26,630 nt of DNA from Haplosporangium gracile (Eukaryota; Mortierellomycota; Mortierellomycetes; Mortierellales; Mortierellaceae): contig JAAAUF010000584.1 of assembly GCA_015499985.1 (NCBI GenBank), positions 1 through 26,630 on the forward strand, given 5' to 3'. This document shows positions 5,633 to 26,630 of this stretch, one piece after another. Position numbers and translations under genes: made by a program. Under the pieces are notes generated by a model that saw only the letters and a list, made by a program, of their open reading frames with translations, was not told the DNA's origin and ran no database searches. The first letter of the stretch is position 1. Each line of letters starts with the position of its first letter.

Positions 5633-8600
5633 TTACTGATGGTGTTCCATGGCCACGACGGCGTTCGCCTCAGACTCTGCCTCTACACCTATGTACACAA
5701 GTCACAAAAAAAACATAAAGCATGTCAGTAAGTACATGCAAAGGCGAGATAATCACGTAAAAAAAATAAACCACGTTCAAAGTCAAAAAAAAAAGCCTTA
5801 CCATATCGCTCACGGATAAAGGCCTTGAGACGGAGGATCTCATGGACAAGACGATCGTTACTGGATTGCTGAGACTCTTCAACGGTTGTCGTGATAGTCC
5901 CAGGAACGGGTAAGATGGAGATGACAGACGAGGTCGACATGAACGTCTTGGATTCAAGAATCGTTGTCTTCATCATTCGAGGGTCCGGATGGAACCCTCC
6001 ATTGCCAAAAGAACTGCTTGCCGCACAGTGGTTGTTGCTTCCACCAGGACCGTAATCATAGGGACCAGACATATTGCCTGGAGCGGTTCTTGACCGGCCA
6101 CCAGATGTGACGGATGACGGTCCAGAGTGAGAAGAGCCCGAAATAAGCAAGGATGGGGTCGAAGTCCCTGATCCAAAGACCGACATTGTCGGGACAACAC
6201 TATTGACGCATCCACCGTCGTATCCAAACGCTATAGTGGGGAATTGCACTGATGAATTTTCGTGTGGGTTCAAAGTGGAAGAGGGCACCAGGCTGACCAT
6301 AGAAGAGTTGTTGGCTGCTGTGGCTACCGAATTCATCGCCGCAAGTTGCTGGAAAGTGAGAGGGTGGCCAGATCCATCAACGTCGTCAGCAACAACAGTG
6401 CTGGCTGCTGATGCTGCAGGCGCAAGGTCCTGGCCAAGGTTCGCGGTATTCTGATCCCAGAAAAACTGCTGGTACCACGAAAGAGATGCGGGAGCCGGGG
6501 CCGTGTTCAACGCCAGGACAGCCGAAGTCTTTGCAGCAACCAAATCGGAGCACTCGAGCTCGGTCGAGGGAACTTGCAGAGAATTCTGGTGTGACATGAG
6601 ATCGACCTCGCCAAGGGGTCCAAGAGAGATCGAAGGGATGGATGGGTTGATCTGGATCAAGTCTGCGCCGCCGCCGTCGTCGTCAAGAACGCTGCCGTTG
6701 GGCACCGAGGAGATATATGGTGGAGGAGGACTGGTTATTGAAAGAGTGTTGCTGGCAGTGTCGCTGGCGTGTGTAGGGATTTGGTTCATTCTGACGGTAG
6801 GGGCTCTGTGGAAAAATAGTGGTTGAAAAGGAGAATCTCTCTGCTGCTGCTCGTCCATTTTGTTGCTGTTCTGACCACCGTCACCGCCGTCACCACCACC
6901 GGGAATCAACAGGGACTGCTGTTGATGATACTGGTGGTGATTGTGCTGCCCCTGCTGATTGATTTCATTGAAATGTCTCGATCGCACGAGACTGTCTTCA
7001 GAAGTGTTCTGCGCCAGAGGCAGAAACTGCTGATCCATACAAGTGACTTCGCTGGCAGTAGAGCGAGAATGGAATCCGGTAATGTCGACCGCGGGATCTC
7101 CGTTCAGAGAGGCATTCTGGTCAAAGTAATGATGCGTCGTCCGTTCCGAGACCTTGGAGACCTCTAGACCATCCTTGCCGAGAGATATCGTAACGAGCGC
7201 ATTGTTGCCCTTGTCCAAGCGACAGGTTGGGCTAGTATTTTCCTCGGGCAACCTTGATATAGACGCATCAACAACAGCAGAGTGCATTCCCAGTCTGACT
7301 CCATTCGGCATCGCACCGACCGAATCCATGACCACCGACTCGATCACATCCGCCTCCTCGCTACCTGGATCATAATCACCTTCCATTCCGTCATCAGAAT
7401 CACTCTCATCCGACCGCCAACTCGAACAGGCGCGTTTTTTGGACGTCGACGCGAGATTGGTCAGAGAAGGGTGGTTGTCCAGTCCTTCTCGATAGTGCTG
7501 TCCGGCCGGGAACTTGACAGGTGGAAGGATCTTGCCGATGGTTCCTCGAAAACCCTTGGCGTGTGGATTATGAGACTTTTTCAAGTCATTCACCTTATAG
7601 TTCTGGTAATGAGTGACCGCCATGAACTCTGTCCTGTCGAATCGGTAAACGATAGAGTTGATGATGTCGTGCGAGTTCTTTGCGCGCTGTGTGAGGTAGA
7701 TCCTAGGGCAATACTTGTGGAACGAAGTCATATGAAACACATTTGTGTTGATGTCGTTGACTCCGGTCAGCTCTGCGTATGGATCACCGTAGCCGCTGTT
7801 GCTATTGGTGCTGATAGTAGAATCGGTCCTCTGTTTCGAGGTCCTCTTGGCAACACTGAACGAACTCTCAACCTTGTTTGTGAGCTTGACTTTGGTGAAT
7901 GAGATTGGGTTAGCCATCCAATGGCTTCCCAGCTGAAACCGGTCCGGGTGGGTATAGGACTCGCGCAAGTGATCGGACGTGGTGGTGGTAGAGTGATGGG
8001 CAGGGTCATAAGAGTCATGGCTTCCTGAGGAAAAGCAGTCATCGATCTGTCGCAGGGGCTCAACCGGCTTCCATCCTCCATTATAGAATCGATATCGATT
8101 TGGTGTCAGCATTTCAAAGTCGATCCGCATCGAGTAGTACGAATCCGGGTCCAGGCCGAGAATCTTGAAGCGGAGACAAGGGAAAAGGCAGCGGCCTGAC
8201 TTTGTAATGATCATCTCATTGTGCTGCTCATGAAACTGCGCCCACAGATCAGCGTCCAAGATCAACAGCGCTGGTGGAGGCTCGTTGTTATTAATACTGC
8301 TGCTTGAAGAAGGGGGAGCAGTCGAGCTGCTGTTGACCGGCGTTCTGAGCGGAGGGATCCTGACGGGAGCAGAGAGCGCGAGACGGCCGGAAGGTGTGGT
8401 ACTGTTAAACAACGATGATGGTGATGGAGGAGGGGCGTAGTGCTCTTCTCGTCTCCGCTTGCTGGAAGGTCGGCCGCTACTGTTGTCCTGGAAGGACTGC
8501 GACTGAAATCGCGCTGACTGGATGTCGTAGTCTGTTGGCTCCTTCATGTTGGCTGACTGGATCTTTGGGGGAGCAGGGTCTCCCAGAAGCATGCTATCAT

Positions 8601-8944
8601 ACCAAGGTCTATATGGATGAAGAAGACAAGCACTAGGAGTCAGGTACACATTGCAGCACACCTTTGAAAGAAAGGCTACAACAAACGAACAAGTCGATGA
8701 ACATAACATACTCGGAGGATCGATAGTCTGGTCGTGTGTCGCTTCGAAAATTCCTTGGAGGAATTTGGCGAGGATCAAAAAGATGTAAAGTCGACTCCAT
8801 CTCCTTGTGAACGTGTTCTTGCCGAGAGGAAGTCATAGCGGAGACTTGTGTGCTCGAGGAAGAAGATTGAGCGGAGACAAAGTAGCCGTCTTGCGGTTGT
8901 GAAGAAAGGTGTGGAGGCGGTGGTTGGTGTTGATATAGAGGCAT
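5633..8944 (-). CDS. T-box transcription factor (Brachyury-like DNA-binding domain), 1031 aa
   Basis: Three exons: 8944-8712, 8608-5802 and 5688-5633. The introns have donors GTATGT and GTAAGG and acceptors TATAG and CATAG, and phases close exactly. Start chosen at 8944 (MPLYQHQPPPP), because the longer frame's own Met at 8778 lies out of frame inside exon 1. The T-box spans about residues 193-432: LWAQFHEQHNEMIITKSGR, GLDPDSYYSMRIDFEM, HPDR...GSHWMANPISF, KLTN, SFHKYCPRIYL, FMAVTHYQNYKVNDLKKSHN and AKGFRG. These match the canonical NEMIVTK, HPDxxxxGxxWM, MHKYxPR, AVTxYQN and NPxAKGFR signatures. Two extra segments of roughly 24 and 39 residues sit in loops between WKPV and HPDR and between KLTN and HKY. 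A basic cluster SSKRRREE near residue 127 is a likely nuclear signal. The rest is Ser/Gln/Gly-rich and probably disordered. Role: sequence-specific DNA binding in the nucleus; targets unknown. Confidence 0.93.
7546..8265 (-). other. T-box DNA-binding domain
   Basis: This is the coding span of the T-box itself, from LLILDADLW to NPHAKGFRG. At about 240 residues it exceeds the usual 180 or so, because of the two loop insertions described for the gene. The major-groove and dimer-side landmarks of animal T-box proteins (HKY.PR and AVT.YQN) are intact. Confidence 0.9.
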
Positions 8945-12954: not shown

Positions 12955-15900
12955 CTACGCTCGTGATCGCTTGGCTTGGATCATAAACACGTTGGGAACA
13001 CCAATCTCGGGCTATTTGTCCATCAGTAGCAAGAAAGTAGAAAATCATTCAGTTAGTCATCGATCCTCATGAAAGAAAATATTTCATACCTCATCAACGG
13101 CACACAAAGCCTACCTTCTCAAAGATGATGGCGGAGAGGTCGTCGGATCGTCGTCTTCTGCGATCATGGCGCATCGCCCCGGCATCAACCTGGCCATGTC
13201 CAGTATGTGGCGGTTCTCCTTCCATAACAGTGGCCAGCGTCTCAATCTGATCCGTATCACCATCGGCTTGAACATCATTGTCCTCCCATTCTTCAGGATG
13301 CTTCTCCCACTGATCATCCGATTCCTTCTCTACAGCAGGCTCCTCAACAGCCAGACGGCATCTAAAGAAGCCGCACCCAACATCCCATGCTTCCCGGCAC
13401 ACCCAGCAAAAGCGATGTCCGCACAGCATGCAATCCACCTTGTTGCATCCATCGTCCCGATGAATCAGAATGCAGCAGTTTGGGCACGGGTTCGTGTTGG
13501 CCAGCTTCCACTGCATCGTTCCAGTATCCAGGTCCGATCGCTCTTTGCCCTTGTGTCCCATAGAGCCAGCCAATGACGAGGTGTACGGTGAATAGCTGTC
13601 GACCTTGCTAGCTCGGCTTCGTCGAGATGTGGTTGTGTTGGTCGTAATGACCGACCTCATGTGGTCAAAGCAACTCTCTGACTCGTGGTGGCTCGACACT
13701 CCGCACTGCAAACACAATTCCAGATCGCAGTTGTTGCTATCATATCGATCAAGCGGAACGAATGCGATGTTAGAACATGGACCAACAATTGAGGTAAAAA
13801 GAGAGGCAGGGTTTTAGCGACAACTATAGAGAGAGAGAGTGAGAGAGAGAGAGAGAGAAAGAGAGAGAGATCTTACCACCACTCCCAGCGGCACCAGCGC
13901 ACATGCAAGAACTGAAGTTCTTTCCACTGTTCAGGCCGAACCTCAAGACTCAACAACTCCTGGCTAAAGCGCACCAGAGCCTTTTTCACCTCCAATCGGC
14001 GTTTGTTCTCTGCACGAGTAATGATCTTGGAGCGGTCGGCGATCGTCCGTTTTGGTATCCTGACAGACTCGATCGTAACTCCCCCGCACGGATCTGCGAC
14101 TGTGGTGACTTTGCCAGGTGCAGCGATCCCTGTAACTTCAGTAGGGATACCCAGATGACCATATTCTTCCGTTTCCTTCACAGTATCAGTTCGAGTAACC
14201 ACCCTCATGCTGTCGTTCTGCTCCGGGGGTTGTAGGTTGAACAGCTCGATCAAAGACACCATTAGATCCTTGTACATCTCCAGAACGCCAGTCGGCTTGG
14301 CAGGCTGCTGCTGTTTTCTCTGAAACAATGAGCTCGGGGCGGATCTGTAGGCCGAATCCTGTTGAGGGTGAGCTGCCCGCGCATCGAGATGCGGCTGAAA
14401 GTCGACTGACTGTCCTCCTGCAGGTGCTGCGTGACTCCCCAACTGAAATGTCCGAGCATTCGAATGTTGCCCTGGGTCAACTGGGGCTGGAGCTGGAGTC
14501 GGTGTCGGCGGTGCAGCTCCTCCGCCTAGAGCGCGCATAGCCAGACTTGAAAAGTACGACTGAGCCATTGAAGGAAGCGTGGCTGCATTGCCTTGAGGAG
14601 TGCCGCAGAATGATCGATAGTCTTTGATGAATTGCTGGACGAGCCCCTGTGCTCGGACATCGCGCTTTGAGTGTCCAGTGCCGCTGTACTTGTGTCGTTT
14701 GCGTCCGTCCATTGACGAAAACTTCGTAGACGCCGACGAGGTTGATGCAGATGCCTCAGGGTTCAGACCTTCCAAGAACAAGAGCGATTTTAGCTGCTCC
14801 AGAAGGCTCTCGAACAAGGGCAGAAGATCCCGCGAAGGCAGACTCACAATCGACTGTTTGACACGGGAAATGGCGACCTCGTTATCGCATCCATTACAGA
14901 ATCGCGAGAATGAGCGGTATGGCTGATTGTACTGCTGATATTGAGCGAGTGTTTCCTGGTCCACATACTAAAGAGAGTTGAAACGAAGAAGGGTAAAGGT
15001 AGGTTAAAACAACCGACACGTGTCACAGCATTGATCCCGAAGGCAAGTGACAAGTGGAAATTATTTTTTTAGTTGCACCAATGTCTAATAGAAAGAGACT
15101 CGAGTAATTGTTGTACCTTGGACCATTCTGCGAGAGGGAGGGGATCTTGGCAGACTGGGCACTTGATCTTTGTAACGTCCAGTCCCCATGAGTTGCTGAC
15201 GACCTCTTTGACGTATCTATTTTGCAGGATACACAGGTACGATAAAAACACTGGTCAGTAACAGATTTCGGATATATCCGTATGCTGCTGTTAATATAGG
15301 TGGTCTCTTGTGTCCTTTGTGTAATAAAAGGCGAGCATTGATATTTCTACGCGTGGTACGAACAATTTTTTTTTCTTTTTTGGTTTGTTTGGTATGTAAG
15401 AAGGGAAAGGAGAGAGGGTGCTGTACTGTGCAATGGCATTTAAGGCTGGTCCAATCAGACGCCGGATTATCAAATGACCATGTTTTTGTTTTTTGAGTTC
15501 ATTTTTACAATTCATACAACATAGTTCACCCTTTTTTTTTTTTTTTTGGTTCGAGTTGAGGAGAGATGTGTATCCATAAACAAGAAGACTCTGGTACATA
15601 CTTCTGGAAGCAATCTCTGCAAAATTGATCTCGGCACAACTCGAGGCAAAAGTCCAGCCGTGAGTCAAAGCAGATCGAGCACCGTTGGAGATAGTACTCC
15701 ATTTCATTCGACATTGCGTCGCCTTCTGATTCGTCGTCGCTGCCGTTGTCGTATTCATGATCATGCTCGTACTCGTGGTCATGGTCGTGGTCGTGGTTGT
15801 GCTGCTCGTGATGCTGCTGTGCACCGTCATAGTCCATGGTTGACTCAGAGTTGTTGTTGTGCCTTGGCAAGGGTTGACGAAATTGGAGCTGTTGCTGCTG

Positions 15901-19258: not shown

Positions 19259-20407
19259 TTACTTCTTCTTGGAGACACCGACAACGCGACCGCGACGACC
19301 AGTGGTCTTGGTGTGCTGACCACGGACACGGACGCCCCAGTAGTGACGGAGACCACGATGGGCACGGATCTTCTTGAGACGCTCCAAATCCTCACGCATC
19401 TGGTTGTCAAGACCGTTAGCCAAAAGCTGGGTGTACTTTCCATCAGTGAAGTTCTTCTGTCTGTTAAGGAACCACTGGGGAACCTTGTACTGGGTGGGGT
19501 TCTGCATGATGGTGACGAGGCGCTCGAGCTCTTCGTTGGTAAGCTCACCGGCTCTATTGAGGACAAAAGGAAGAATGCAATGATGGACAGATGGTCAGCC
19601 TCATAGTCCTTGAAGGTATAAAAAGTATATTCCTGGATACAATGTCTGATTGCCTCCTGAGAATATGATCACTGGTCTCCGAAGTCATGTCGATGGGTGC
19701 ACAGCAGTTGGTGACGGCGGTGTTAAAGAAAGAGTAATTTAAAAGTAGTTGCTCCTTCTCATGAAATGATACGGGCTGACCCCATAGTCCCTATTCGGTC
19801 GAGTTGGATTGTTTAAGGCTCTCTCGTTCCATTGACCTGGAGTGTCTCTGGCACAAAATGGAGACAGGTTCCTGGTGGCCAGTTGACCAGGTCGTATGGG
19901 AGTGATAGTGAGAAATGGTGGTGTGATCCTGTATCCATGCTTTAGACTTTAGCAGAGAATAACGACCATTCTTGAACCAATTGCTGTTGCTGTTACTGTT
20001 GTGTTTAACCCTGCTGTCGCTGTCATTTGCTTGACTTGTTACGCCACTGTCCTGGCTCTCCAATTGTATCCAGCTCTCCCGTTGTAGTGGTGTGAAGTTG
20101 CTAAAAACTAGCACGCACCTCTTCTTCAAGTCGATATCAGCCTTCTTGCAGACCAAGTTGGCATAACGACGACCGACACCCTTGATGTTAGTCTATTATG
20201 TTTCGGAAAGATGAAAATAAAAAGTATAAGTTAAAAAAAAAACGCTCCTAAGGCCAGTATACAAGTCCAAAGATTAAGTATTATTGAAAAAAAAAGATGT
20301 TGGGTTTTGCTTACCATGGCGAACATGATCTTAGTCTTGCCCTCCACGTTCGTGTTAAGAACACGAAGAATGTGCTGGAACTGGCCTTTCTCAGGAACAA
20401 GGAGAGA
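19259..20407 (-). CDS. RPS18: 40S ribosomal protein uS13 (RPS18), first codon exon upstream
   Basis: Coding exons 20407-20315, 20192-20119 and 19553-19259 join in phase to read [20 protein letters not shown], then [20 protein letters not shown], then AGELT...[16 protein letters not shown] and [13 protein letters not shown]. This is the full small-subunit head protein uS13, which contacts tRNA and the inter-subunit bridge. The acceptor before Ser2 (AATAACAG) implies that the initiator ATG lies alone in an upstream exon. An ATG directly followed by GTAGCG at 20852-20850 would fit, giving 154 aa, but this is tentative. The introns are 122 and 565 nt, both ending in AATAG. It is divergent with RPL19, matching co-expression of ribosomal genes. 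Confidence 0.95.
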
Positions 20408-23845: not shown

Positions 23846-25312
23846 CTATCGTCGTCGAGTACCTCCAAACCCAGTCGCAGTCCTTGTAGGTCCAGAACTC
23901 GACCCCGCCGATGATGATGACGATCTCCCTCCCATACCACTTCCTCCAGAGTAAGATCCATACGACGACGAACCCCATGATGAAGACGACGGTGAGGCAT
24001 TCGCATTCGCATAGGCAGAGCTTGGACCAGCGTAGGCGTTTGCCTGTGCCTGTCGACGGTTCCGGTTCTGTGCGGCTAGATAGGCTCCCAGACCTCCTAA
24101 CCCCACGCCTGACCAGAACCCTGGTCTAAATCCTCCTGCTTCTGCCGTCGATGATGCTATGTCGAAAAGTTGAGAAGTAAAAAAAAGAAAGTGAAAAAGG
24201 AATATCGTTCAGTTCTGTCCTGTTCATAAATGGATCATATTGCCATTCAATAATTCATAGGTTAATTATTCTTGGATGGAATCCATACCTGAGGGTTTGT
24301 ACTGGTTGCTAGGGTTCCATCCACCACCTCCTCCACCTCCTCCACCGCCACCAAATCCACCACCGCCATGTCCACTAGATGGCCTATAAGGTGGTGGCGG
24401 GTCGTCGTTTCTAGCATCTTCCCGATAATGCTGGAAACAGTTCTTCAAGAACGAGTACAAGATAAAACAGACGACGCTGATCCATGTACCGAGGTATAAC
24501 AGCTCCACCCACGACTGCCTCTTTGCTATTGTCGTTCAGCAATGTGCAAACAAAAATGTTAGCAAATTAACATGAGCTATTACTTCCAATGAGAAAAAAA
24601 CGAGAAACTGAGAAAAAGACCGGGTTACAAAAAAGATAAAGTCTTGTCAACTTCTTACCTCGACGGGTCCACTCGTTGAAGGCAGGATTCTTCCACGTAT
24701 CCCCACCATAATTATTATTCGTATTATACCGGACATTGGTATACTGAAGCTTATACTCGAGTCCACAACTACCCTTGAGGATGTAGGGGTCGTCAGGGTA
24801 GGTGTAGCCCTCACAAAAGACATCTAGTTGTCCGAACCGCAGGTTGTCTGGTAGATCTGCCTGACATTTCCACTGCACATCGTTCCCGTCGAATCCTGCG
24901 TTTGTGCATTGCACCACCTCTATTGTTGTTATGTGTGATTGATATAATAAGGCAAGGCAAGGAAAGAAGCGCTTGTTAATGATATGGCATAAAAAATAAT
25001 ATAGAAGCTGGAAGAATGGAAAGCTCAAAAGAAAAAGCCTTTAATAGAAAAAACAAATGGATGAAAATTACCAGGCTCAAAGTCGCCACAGGCGTTGCCG
25101 CCGACACACTTGATCTGGGGAACGGGGCTGGTTCTCCGGCCGGTAGTCATAAGGCCTTGATGCAGGGTCAATGTCTGCACATCCTTGAGAAGAACTTTCT
25201 TGTGATTGTTGCTCCCGAACGCAGAGACGGTGGAGGGGGTTGTGGCGAGAAGACAGGCGGCGGTGGCGAGTGCCAGTACTGTTGGCGAGAAGAGGCGTCG
25301 TCTTGTTGACAT
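23846..25312 (-). CDS. SARAF (TMEM66) homologue, ER calcium-entry regulator family, 349 aa
   Basis: Four exons: 25312-25072, 24919-24659, 24525-24289 and 24156-23846, phases closing. The start at 25312 gives a signal peptide (MSTRRRLFSPTVLALATAAC, cut near residue 31). The lumenal part carries KVLLKDVQTLTLHQG, PQIKCVGGNACGDFEPE, VVQCTNAGFDGNDVQWKC, FCEGYT and SCGLEYKLQYTNVRY, aligning with the six-Cys SARAF domain. A membrane helix follows at about 174-194 (LLYLGTWISVVCFILYSF), then PPPPY at about 210, a Gly-rich run, RPGFWSGVGLGGLGAYLA, and a C-terminus TRTATGFGGTRRR nearly the same as in animals. In animals SARAF is an ER membrane protein that inactivates STIM-Orai calcium entry; the fungal role is unknown. 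It follows GDI in the same direction, 552 bases away. Confidence 0.93.
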
Positions 25313-25864: not shown

Positions 25865-26608
25865 TTACTGGTCAGCCATCTCCTTTTGCTCCTCCTCCTG
25901 GGTCTGACGCTGCTTGAGGACAAGGTCGTTGCCGGTGATACGCTTGTAAAGATCCTTGACATCATCGCAGACAGTCTCGAAGTGAGAAGTGGCATCGTAC
26001 GACTTGGAGATAAAGACCTGGTCATCTTTGCCATCCTTGATAGGCTCGCAGATATCAACGACCTGCACGAACCTATTGGGAGAAAAGAGGTGAAGAAAGA
26101 AGTGGTTAGTTACCAGGATCAGTTTGATCATCATATTCAACTACAACTTTTGACAACAACAACGTCAACACAACTGTAAAAAAGAACATACTTGTCGACG
26201 ATGGGTCCGAGGAGGGCAAGACCGGGCTGGATCTCCTCCTGGGGGTTGGCGGTCTCGACGACGGTGGAAACGATGGCGAGGTAGTGGTTCTTTTCGCAAA
26301 CGTTGTGGGAGGCAGAGACACCAGCAATGTAAATGTCGTTCTTGCGCTTGACCTGGTTCTGAGGAATAATCAACTGGAAAGAGTCAACGTTGTCGGTGTT
26401 GGGGATGGGGCCCTTGAGCAAGCAAATGGCACGGATGACGCGGTCGGTCTTGTGGACCTTCTCGGGAGCATAGGAGGGGTCGCAAATGACCTGGGAGCAC
26501 TTGGCAACCTCATCACCAGAGCGAACACCGACGACCTTGCCATTCTCGTAGACAATCTCGTCGACCTTCTTGTCGAGCATGTAGGTACCACCGTAGATAG
26601 CAGAGAGA
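25865..26608 (-). CDS. GDI1: Rab GDP-dissociation inhibitor, C-terminal part (partial, runs off right edge)
   Basis: Two exons are visible: 26608-26192 and 26072-25865, joined across a 119-nt intron (donor GTATGT, acceptor CAATAG). They give about 207 C-terminal residues; upstream exons lie beyond the window, since an acceptor (AATATAG) sits at 26609-26610. The text LSAIYGGTYMLDKKVDEIVY, VICDPSYAPEKV, DRVIRAICLLKGPIPNT, PQNQVKRKNDIYIAGVSASH and DVKDLYKRITGNDLVLKQRQ is diagnostic of GDI. It extracts GDP-bound prenylated Rab GTPases from membranes and recycles them for vesicle transport; it acts in the cytosol. The protein ends in a Glu/Gln-rich tail, EEEQKEMADQ. Codon choice is strongly biased to C-ending codons, as expected of a highly expressed gene. 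Confidence 0.96.
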
Positions 26609-26630
26609 CTATATTATATTAAAAAAAAAG

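Follow-up and report, generated by a model that had tools for sequence, protein, structure and literature searches.

The T-box transcription factors that shape animal development touch DNA through residues described for human brachyury, in which R69 contacts guanine, T196 and A197 lie close to the methyl groups of thymine, and both F213 and F217 insert into the minor groove, F213 forming its hydrogen bond via the main-chain carbonyl (PMC11828899). The DNA preference of T-box monomers was considered constant across phyla, and nematode T-boxes with altered contact residues are reported to bind new motifs (PMC4434323). On the fungal side, several early-branching lineages possess Brachyury-type genes (PMC10256749), the origin of brachyury is placed in the opisthokont ancestor (PMC5592810), the T-box is listed among fungal transcription-factor families (PMC5415576), and it is held to have been wholly lost in the ancestor of Dikarya (PMC10406608). 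Here we describe a T-box gene of Haplosporangium gracile (family Mortierellaceae, phylum Mortierellomycota), which lies on a contig of 26,630 nucleotides (JAAAUF010000584.1, assembly GCA_015499985.1; the window). Its product is, with a probability of about 0.85, a nuclear, sequence-specific T-box transcription factor that has been inherited vertically in fungi, and such fungal copies offer an outside view on the job that the family held before animals. What this copy adds to the known occurrence of T-boxes in fungi are two leads, a set of differences in the contact residues and a conserved module at the end of its tail.

The earlier note on this DNA, which had been made from the letters alone, named the gene as a T-box transcription factor of a fungus, and profile, structure-sequence match, fold and tree all support that assignment. 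The five signatures on which it relied are present on the minus strand (NEMIITK, HPDRFQLGSHWM, HKYCPR, AVTHYQN, and NPHAKGFR); the match to PF00907 scores 159.8 bits, where the cut-off is 26 (E 8.4e-47, profile positions 5-181 of 182); solved T-box structures are matched by sequence (1xbr, E 2.6e-34); and the predicted structure adopts the immunoglobulin-like T-box fold. The gene is probably spliced, as judged from its sequence, from three exons on the minus strand into a single open frame of 1031 codons and a stop, with GT-AG introns throughout (Table 1), and it appears to be intact. For exon 1, support comes from the L. elongata protein P0003, which starts with the same stretch (from Met37, an alternative start of the window protein) and crosses the same exon 1/2 junction; the N-terminus is also conserved in P0011, more weakly than in P0003. 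For intron 2, it comes from the orthologues, which share the same spliced tail, and from the predicted proteins P0023 and P0025, in which additional residues immediately follow the same Gly. The best database match is P0001 (BGZ47_008840, a hypothetical protein of Haplosporangium gracile), which equals the window protein throughout the region searched; this public model has 948 residues, lacks exon 1 and begins within exon 2, at Met84.

By chain counting, the contact residues of human brachyury correspond to Arg217 (R69), Thr410 (T196), His411 (A197), His427 (F213), and Phe431 (F217); three of the five base-contacting residues (R69, T196, F217) are kept in the window protein, as in fungal T-boxes generally, and the other two are His. 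The patterns AVT.YQN and NP.AKGFR given for the gene at the outset are indeed there, but their dots concealed the most interesting part, namely that these positions are His in fungi. In 83 fungal-type sequences (82 retrieved ones and the window protein, which is also P0001), the A197 place is occupied by His in 82 and by Arg in one (P0013), and the F213 place by His in all 71 that are readable, 12 being unreadable by pattern. In the 20 animal-type sequences, the F213 place is always Phe, and the A197 place is Ser in 16 (all TBX5-type), Ala in three, and unreadable in one. When 47 fungal-type domains are compared with four animal ones, and a difference is called fixed where all four animals have one residue and at least 90% of the fungal-type sequences another, five fixed differences emerge over 159 comparable columns: R70C, I203V, T204N, I208K, and F213H (human numbering), all five around the contact residues. 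Residues that are conserved in the fungi and unseen in the four animals number seven, of which six lie around the contact residues and the seventh near position 163; the six include A197H, which joins the fixed differences in setting the fungal domains apart from animal Brachyury/TBXT and TBX5 (PF00907). The T-boxes of other early-diverging fungi share the His residues with the window protein and mostly also the Cys after R69, which is found in 43 of the 47 and is the least strict of the fungal-specific residues. Since the stretches were picked afterwards and the animal set is small, we take the clustering of fixed differences (5/20 vs 0/20, p 0.047) as a descriptive pattern, not as a test; a change shared by the fungi, furthermore, is one event on one branch rather than many independent ones.

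These residues suggest how the protein may act. It would bind a T-box-like element, with the last T-box helix placed into the minor groove as in Brachyury, and, with His in place of A197 and F213, it may read the end of the site differently from Brachyury. A factor whose DNA preference is the same as that of animal Brachyury, with the His changes neutral and only backbone or shape contacts mattering at these places, has a chance that falls a little short of even. The direct hydrogen bond of F213 runs through the backbone, so that the fungal preference could indeed be unchanged; however, F213 and A197 also touch bases with their side chains (PMC11828899), the fixed differences all fall in the two post hoc stretches around the contact residues, and the nematode precedent (PMC4434323) ties altered contact residues to new motifs. 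The more far-reaching proposal, that fungal T-boxes form a distinct recognition class, in which His at A197 and F213 together with Cys by R69, arising on the animal-fungal branch, alter the DNA that is read, and in which the ancestor of Mortierellaceae and Glomeromycota gained a two-helix docking piece for a partner unknown from animals, is tentative, and we doubt it rather more than we credit it. In either case, the two His replacements bear on whether the supposedly constant DNA preference of T-boxes holds beyond animals and their close relatives. As a further candidate feature, Cys218, His411, and His427 could conceivably form a metal site. The fungal residues may be visible already in the work of Sebe-Pedros et al. 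(2013) on early T-box evolution.

Taken as a whole, the window protein is predicted to consist of a complete T-box fold, in which Arg217, Thr410, and Phe431 are retained, and a long, mostly disordered tail, which ends in a conserved two-helix piece. Outside the T-box, three islands exceed the conservation threshold in 25 Mortierellaceae-type proteins including that of the window (residues 787-796, 962-975, and 1001-1026 at the C-terminus), and the C-terminal one also reaches Glomeromycota. A profile of the C-terminal module, built from 17 tails, detects it in 58 of the 99 proteins retrieved, and 41 of these 58 had no part in building it; the copies finish at most 46 residues from the protein end, reversed decoys yield none at E <1, and the named carriers are all Mortierellaceae or Glomeromycota, most of whose T-box proteins share the module with the window protein. 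It is present in none of the examined chytrid, Neocallimastigomycota, Podila-type (n=6), or animal (n=17) proteins. Both predicted models form it as two helices (residues 906-930 and 932-947 of P0001), with a predicted local distance difference test score (pLDDT) of 82-93 over the block. In the H. gracile genome, a 32-residue peptide of the module, searched in six frames with the best candidates only, matched this gene alone; a wider protein search recovered the module in four proteins, all T-box-bearing, among 16 candidates, which are too few to exclude carriers that lack a T-box.

Known families offered no relative of the module: matches to Pfam are weak and inconsistent (for example INO80F, E 0.031 in one of 17 tails; FCH in three of 17) and a solved structure is matched once, at E 1.2, none of which we regard as homology; the fold-search rows cover the T-box and not the module. 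Its conservation is consistent with a partner-binding, docking, or dimerisation piece, and the two-helix tail may dock or dimerise with a partner protein common to Mortierellaceae and Glomeromycota, while the aromatic island LSWYQQFFWD may recruit the transcription machinery. The conserved tail could serve as bait for partner proteins, arbuscular mycorrhizal fungi included.

Several observations weigh against this picture of the protein and its tail. Six Mortierellaceae- or Glomeromycota-type proteins are without the module (P0014, P0018, P0037, P0043, P0090, P0096), and only three of them are labelled partial; P0043 and P0096, which are named Mortierellaceae and carry no such label, argue against its full conservation. 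The activation and docking roles are proposed solely from conservation, and the overall confidence of the full-protein models is low (mean pLDDT 51.7 and 59.1). Nor is the T-box element (as a family criterion, AGGTGTGAAA) enriched in the window, where AGGTGTGA has 0 matches against 0.92 expected and GGTGTGAA, with one mismatch allowed, 22 against 27.2 expected. Autoregulation was set aside as a candidate for want of any such enrichment; as the window is a single contig, this result tests little.

T-box proteins of the fungal kind are widespread. The protein searches, which returned 71 proteins and then 39 partly overlapping ones (the second having scored only the 7985 candidates that share most words), gave named matches from many Mortierellaceae, from Glomeromycota (Rhizophagus, Gigaspora, Acaulospora, Paraglomus, Geosiphon, and others), from chytrids (Powellomyces, Cladochytrium, Blyttiomyces, Caulochytrium, and others), and from Neocallimastigomycota (Piromyces, Anaeromyces). 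Dikarya and Mucorales are absent among the organism-named matches of these searches; protist T-boxes (Capsaspora, ichthyosporeans) are absent among the named matches too, so that the His change may be a gain in fungi or a change in animals. The taxonomic claim of the earlier note holds: absence from Dikarya agrees with the loss described in PMC10406608, and 'a few early-diverging fungi' understates the many taxa named here. Its sense of surprise was overstated, since the gene does not stand out within its family and the fungal branch has already been published. A literature search, largely without subscription papers, found no title on the function of any fungal T-box.

The domain is fully covered in 91 of 103 sequences, and a tree was computed from 53 of 55 chosen ones (197 columns, Q.pfam+I+G4), P0056 and P0069 having been dropped for incomplete domain coverage; its animal side comprises one Brachyury, one TBX3, three TBX5-type, and one unnamed animal-like sequence, with no protist. 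It splits the 47 fungal-type from the 6 animal sequences with support 100. Among its clades, with support values from the unrooted tree, are those of the Glomeromycota-type sequences (96), of 23 Mortierellaceae-type sequences without the Podila-type genes (84), and of 10 sequences of the Linnemannia group (99). The protein of Linnemannia schmuckeri forms a pair with that of the window (99) and is closest to it, with 90% identity in the searched region. The deeper fungal nodes have poor support (26 to 73), and with respect to the Brachyury class the fungal sequences form a group of their own in this tree with its small animal set. That a T-box gene was transferred from an animal into fungi is very improbable: T-box genes are known above all from animals, and fungal matches with names stem from few phyla only, but the fungal-type sequences stand together apart from the animals at full support, with clades that track the fungal groups (in an unrooted tree without protists), and have fungal residues in common at six positions near those that contact DNA. 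Nor do we give any real credence to a decaying copy that no longer works, for although the tail evolves quickly and the paralogues are of unequal length, the frame is open over all 1031 codons, T-box and C-terminal module are both conserved across the family, and the equivalents of R69, T196, and F217 are retained.

Within the Mortierellaceae, L. exigua (P0012) and L. hyalina (P0013) have a second, diverged T-box copy. None was found in the H. gracile assembly (37.5 Mb in 1157 contigs, the window being contig 723, and possibly incomplete), either with the PF00907 profile (E <=0.001) or with the second copy of L. hyalina as query. P0012 and P0013 evolve faster, and P0013, which has Arg at the A197 place, reads NPHARAF for NPHAKGF. 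The T-boxes of Podila and Haplosporangium bisporale (named tbx20 and tbx22) have His at both places, as does the window protein. They sit on a long tree branch, and the six Podila-type proteins examined for the C-terminal module (P0061, P0062, P0063, P0065, P0067, P0069) all lack it; the three paralogues inspected for the aromatic island (P0061, P0062, P0065) nevertheless contain WYQQFFVWDQ, a string similar to that of the window protein.

The two loop insertions that had been noticed inside the DNA-binding domain are real, vary, and also occur in other fungal T-boxes. Measured between anchor motifs, they span 47 and 49 residues in the window protein; the medians are 36 for loop 1 (36 of 44 readable) and 46 for loop 2 (24 of 44) in Mortierellaceae-type sequences, and 40 and 29 in Glomeromycota-type ones (9 of 13 readable for each). 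In animal T-box proteins, from which the long insertions set the fungal ones apart, loop 1 has a median of 23 residues (n=19, range 23-54) and loop 2 has 11 in the one of 19 sequences in which the anchors are readable. Since the loops are poorly conserved, are modelled with low confidence except for a helix in loop 2, and recur in other fungal T-boxes, they resemble spacers more than a new domain.

Table 1. Features of the T-box gene of H. gracile, in positions of the window
Feature	Position	Strand	Remarks
Exon 1	8712..8944	minus	residues 1-77 and part of 78; start ATG 8944-8942
Intron 1	8609..8711	minus	GT-AG, 103 nucleotides
Exon 2	5802..8608	minus	residues 78-1014, codons shared at both ends
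Intron 2	5689..5801	minus	GT-AG, 113 nucleotides; between the two predicted C-terminal helices
Exon 3	5633..5688	minus	includes stop TAA 5635-5633
T-box DNA-binding domain	7546..8256	minus	residues 196-432; profile match and fold
Arg217	8191..8193	minus	equivalent of human brachyury R69; followed by Cys218, which is Arg in the four animal domains compared
Loop insertion 1	7963..8073	minus	about residues 257-293; poorly conserved, mostly low model confidence
Loop insertion 2	7738..7872	minus	about residues 324-368; poorly conserved, starts with a predicted helix of middling confidence
His411	7609..7611	minus	equivalent of human brachyury A197 (thymine methyl contact)
His427	7561..7563	minus	equivalent of human brachyury F213 (minor groove)
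Aromatic island LSWYQQFFWD	6454..6483	minus	residues 787-796, in the disordered tail; from conservation; candidate activation or cofactor motif
Island LESKTFMSTSSVIS	5917..5958	minus	residues 962-975; from conservation
C-terminal two-helix module	5636..5877 (spans intron 2)	minus	residues 989-1030; exon 2 encodes helix 1, and exon 3 helix 2

Other matches in the window likewise lie on its minus strand. Positions 19791-20192, perhaps one exon, match ribosomal protein S13/S18 weakly (PF00416, E 7.1e-5; the 23.7 bits fall short of the cut-off of 31). An IBR domain at 13094-13813 (PF01485, E 1.4e-7) may belong to a gene for an RBR-type ubiquitin ligase, and in the frames that adjoin it, as far as 17886, Ser, Thr, and Pro are very abundant. 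The open stretches 23846-24208 and 24567-25040 are probably exons of one gene and match SARAF, which regulates store-operated calcium entry (E 2.8e-13 and 5e-39 to PF06682), and 26137-26613, near the contig end, encodes part of a Rab GDP dissociation inhibitor (E 7.2e-66 to PF00996, covering positions 240-385 of the 436 in the profile).
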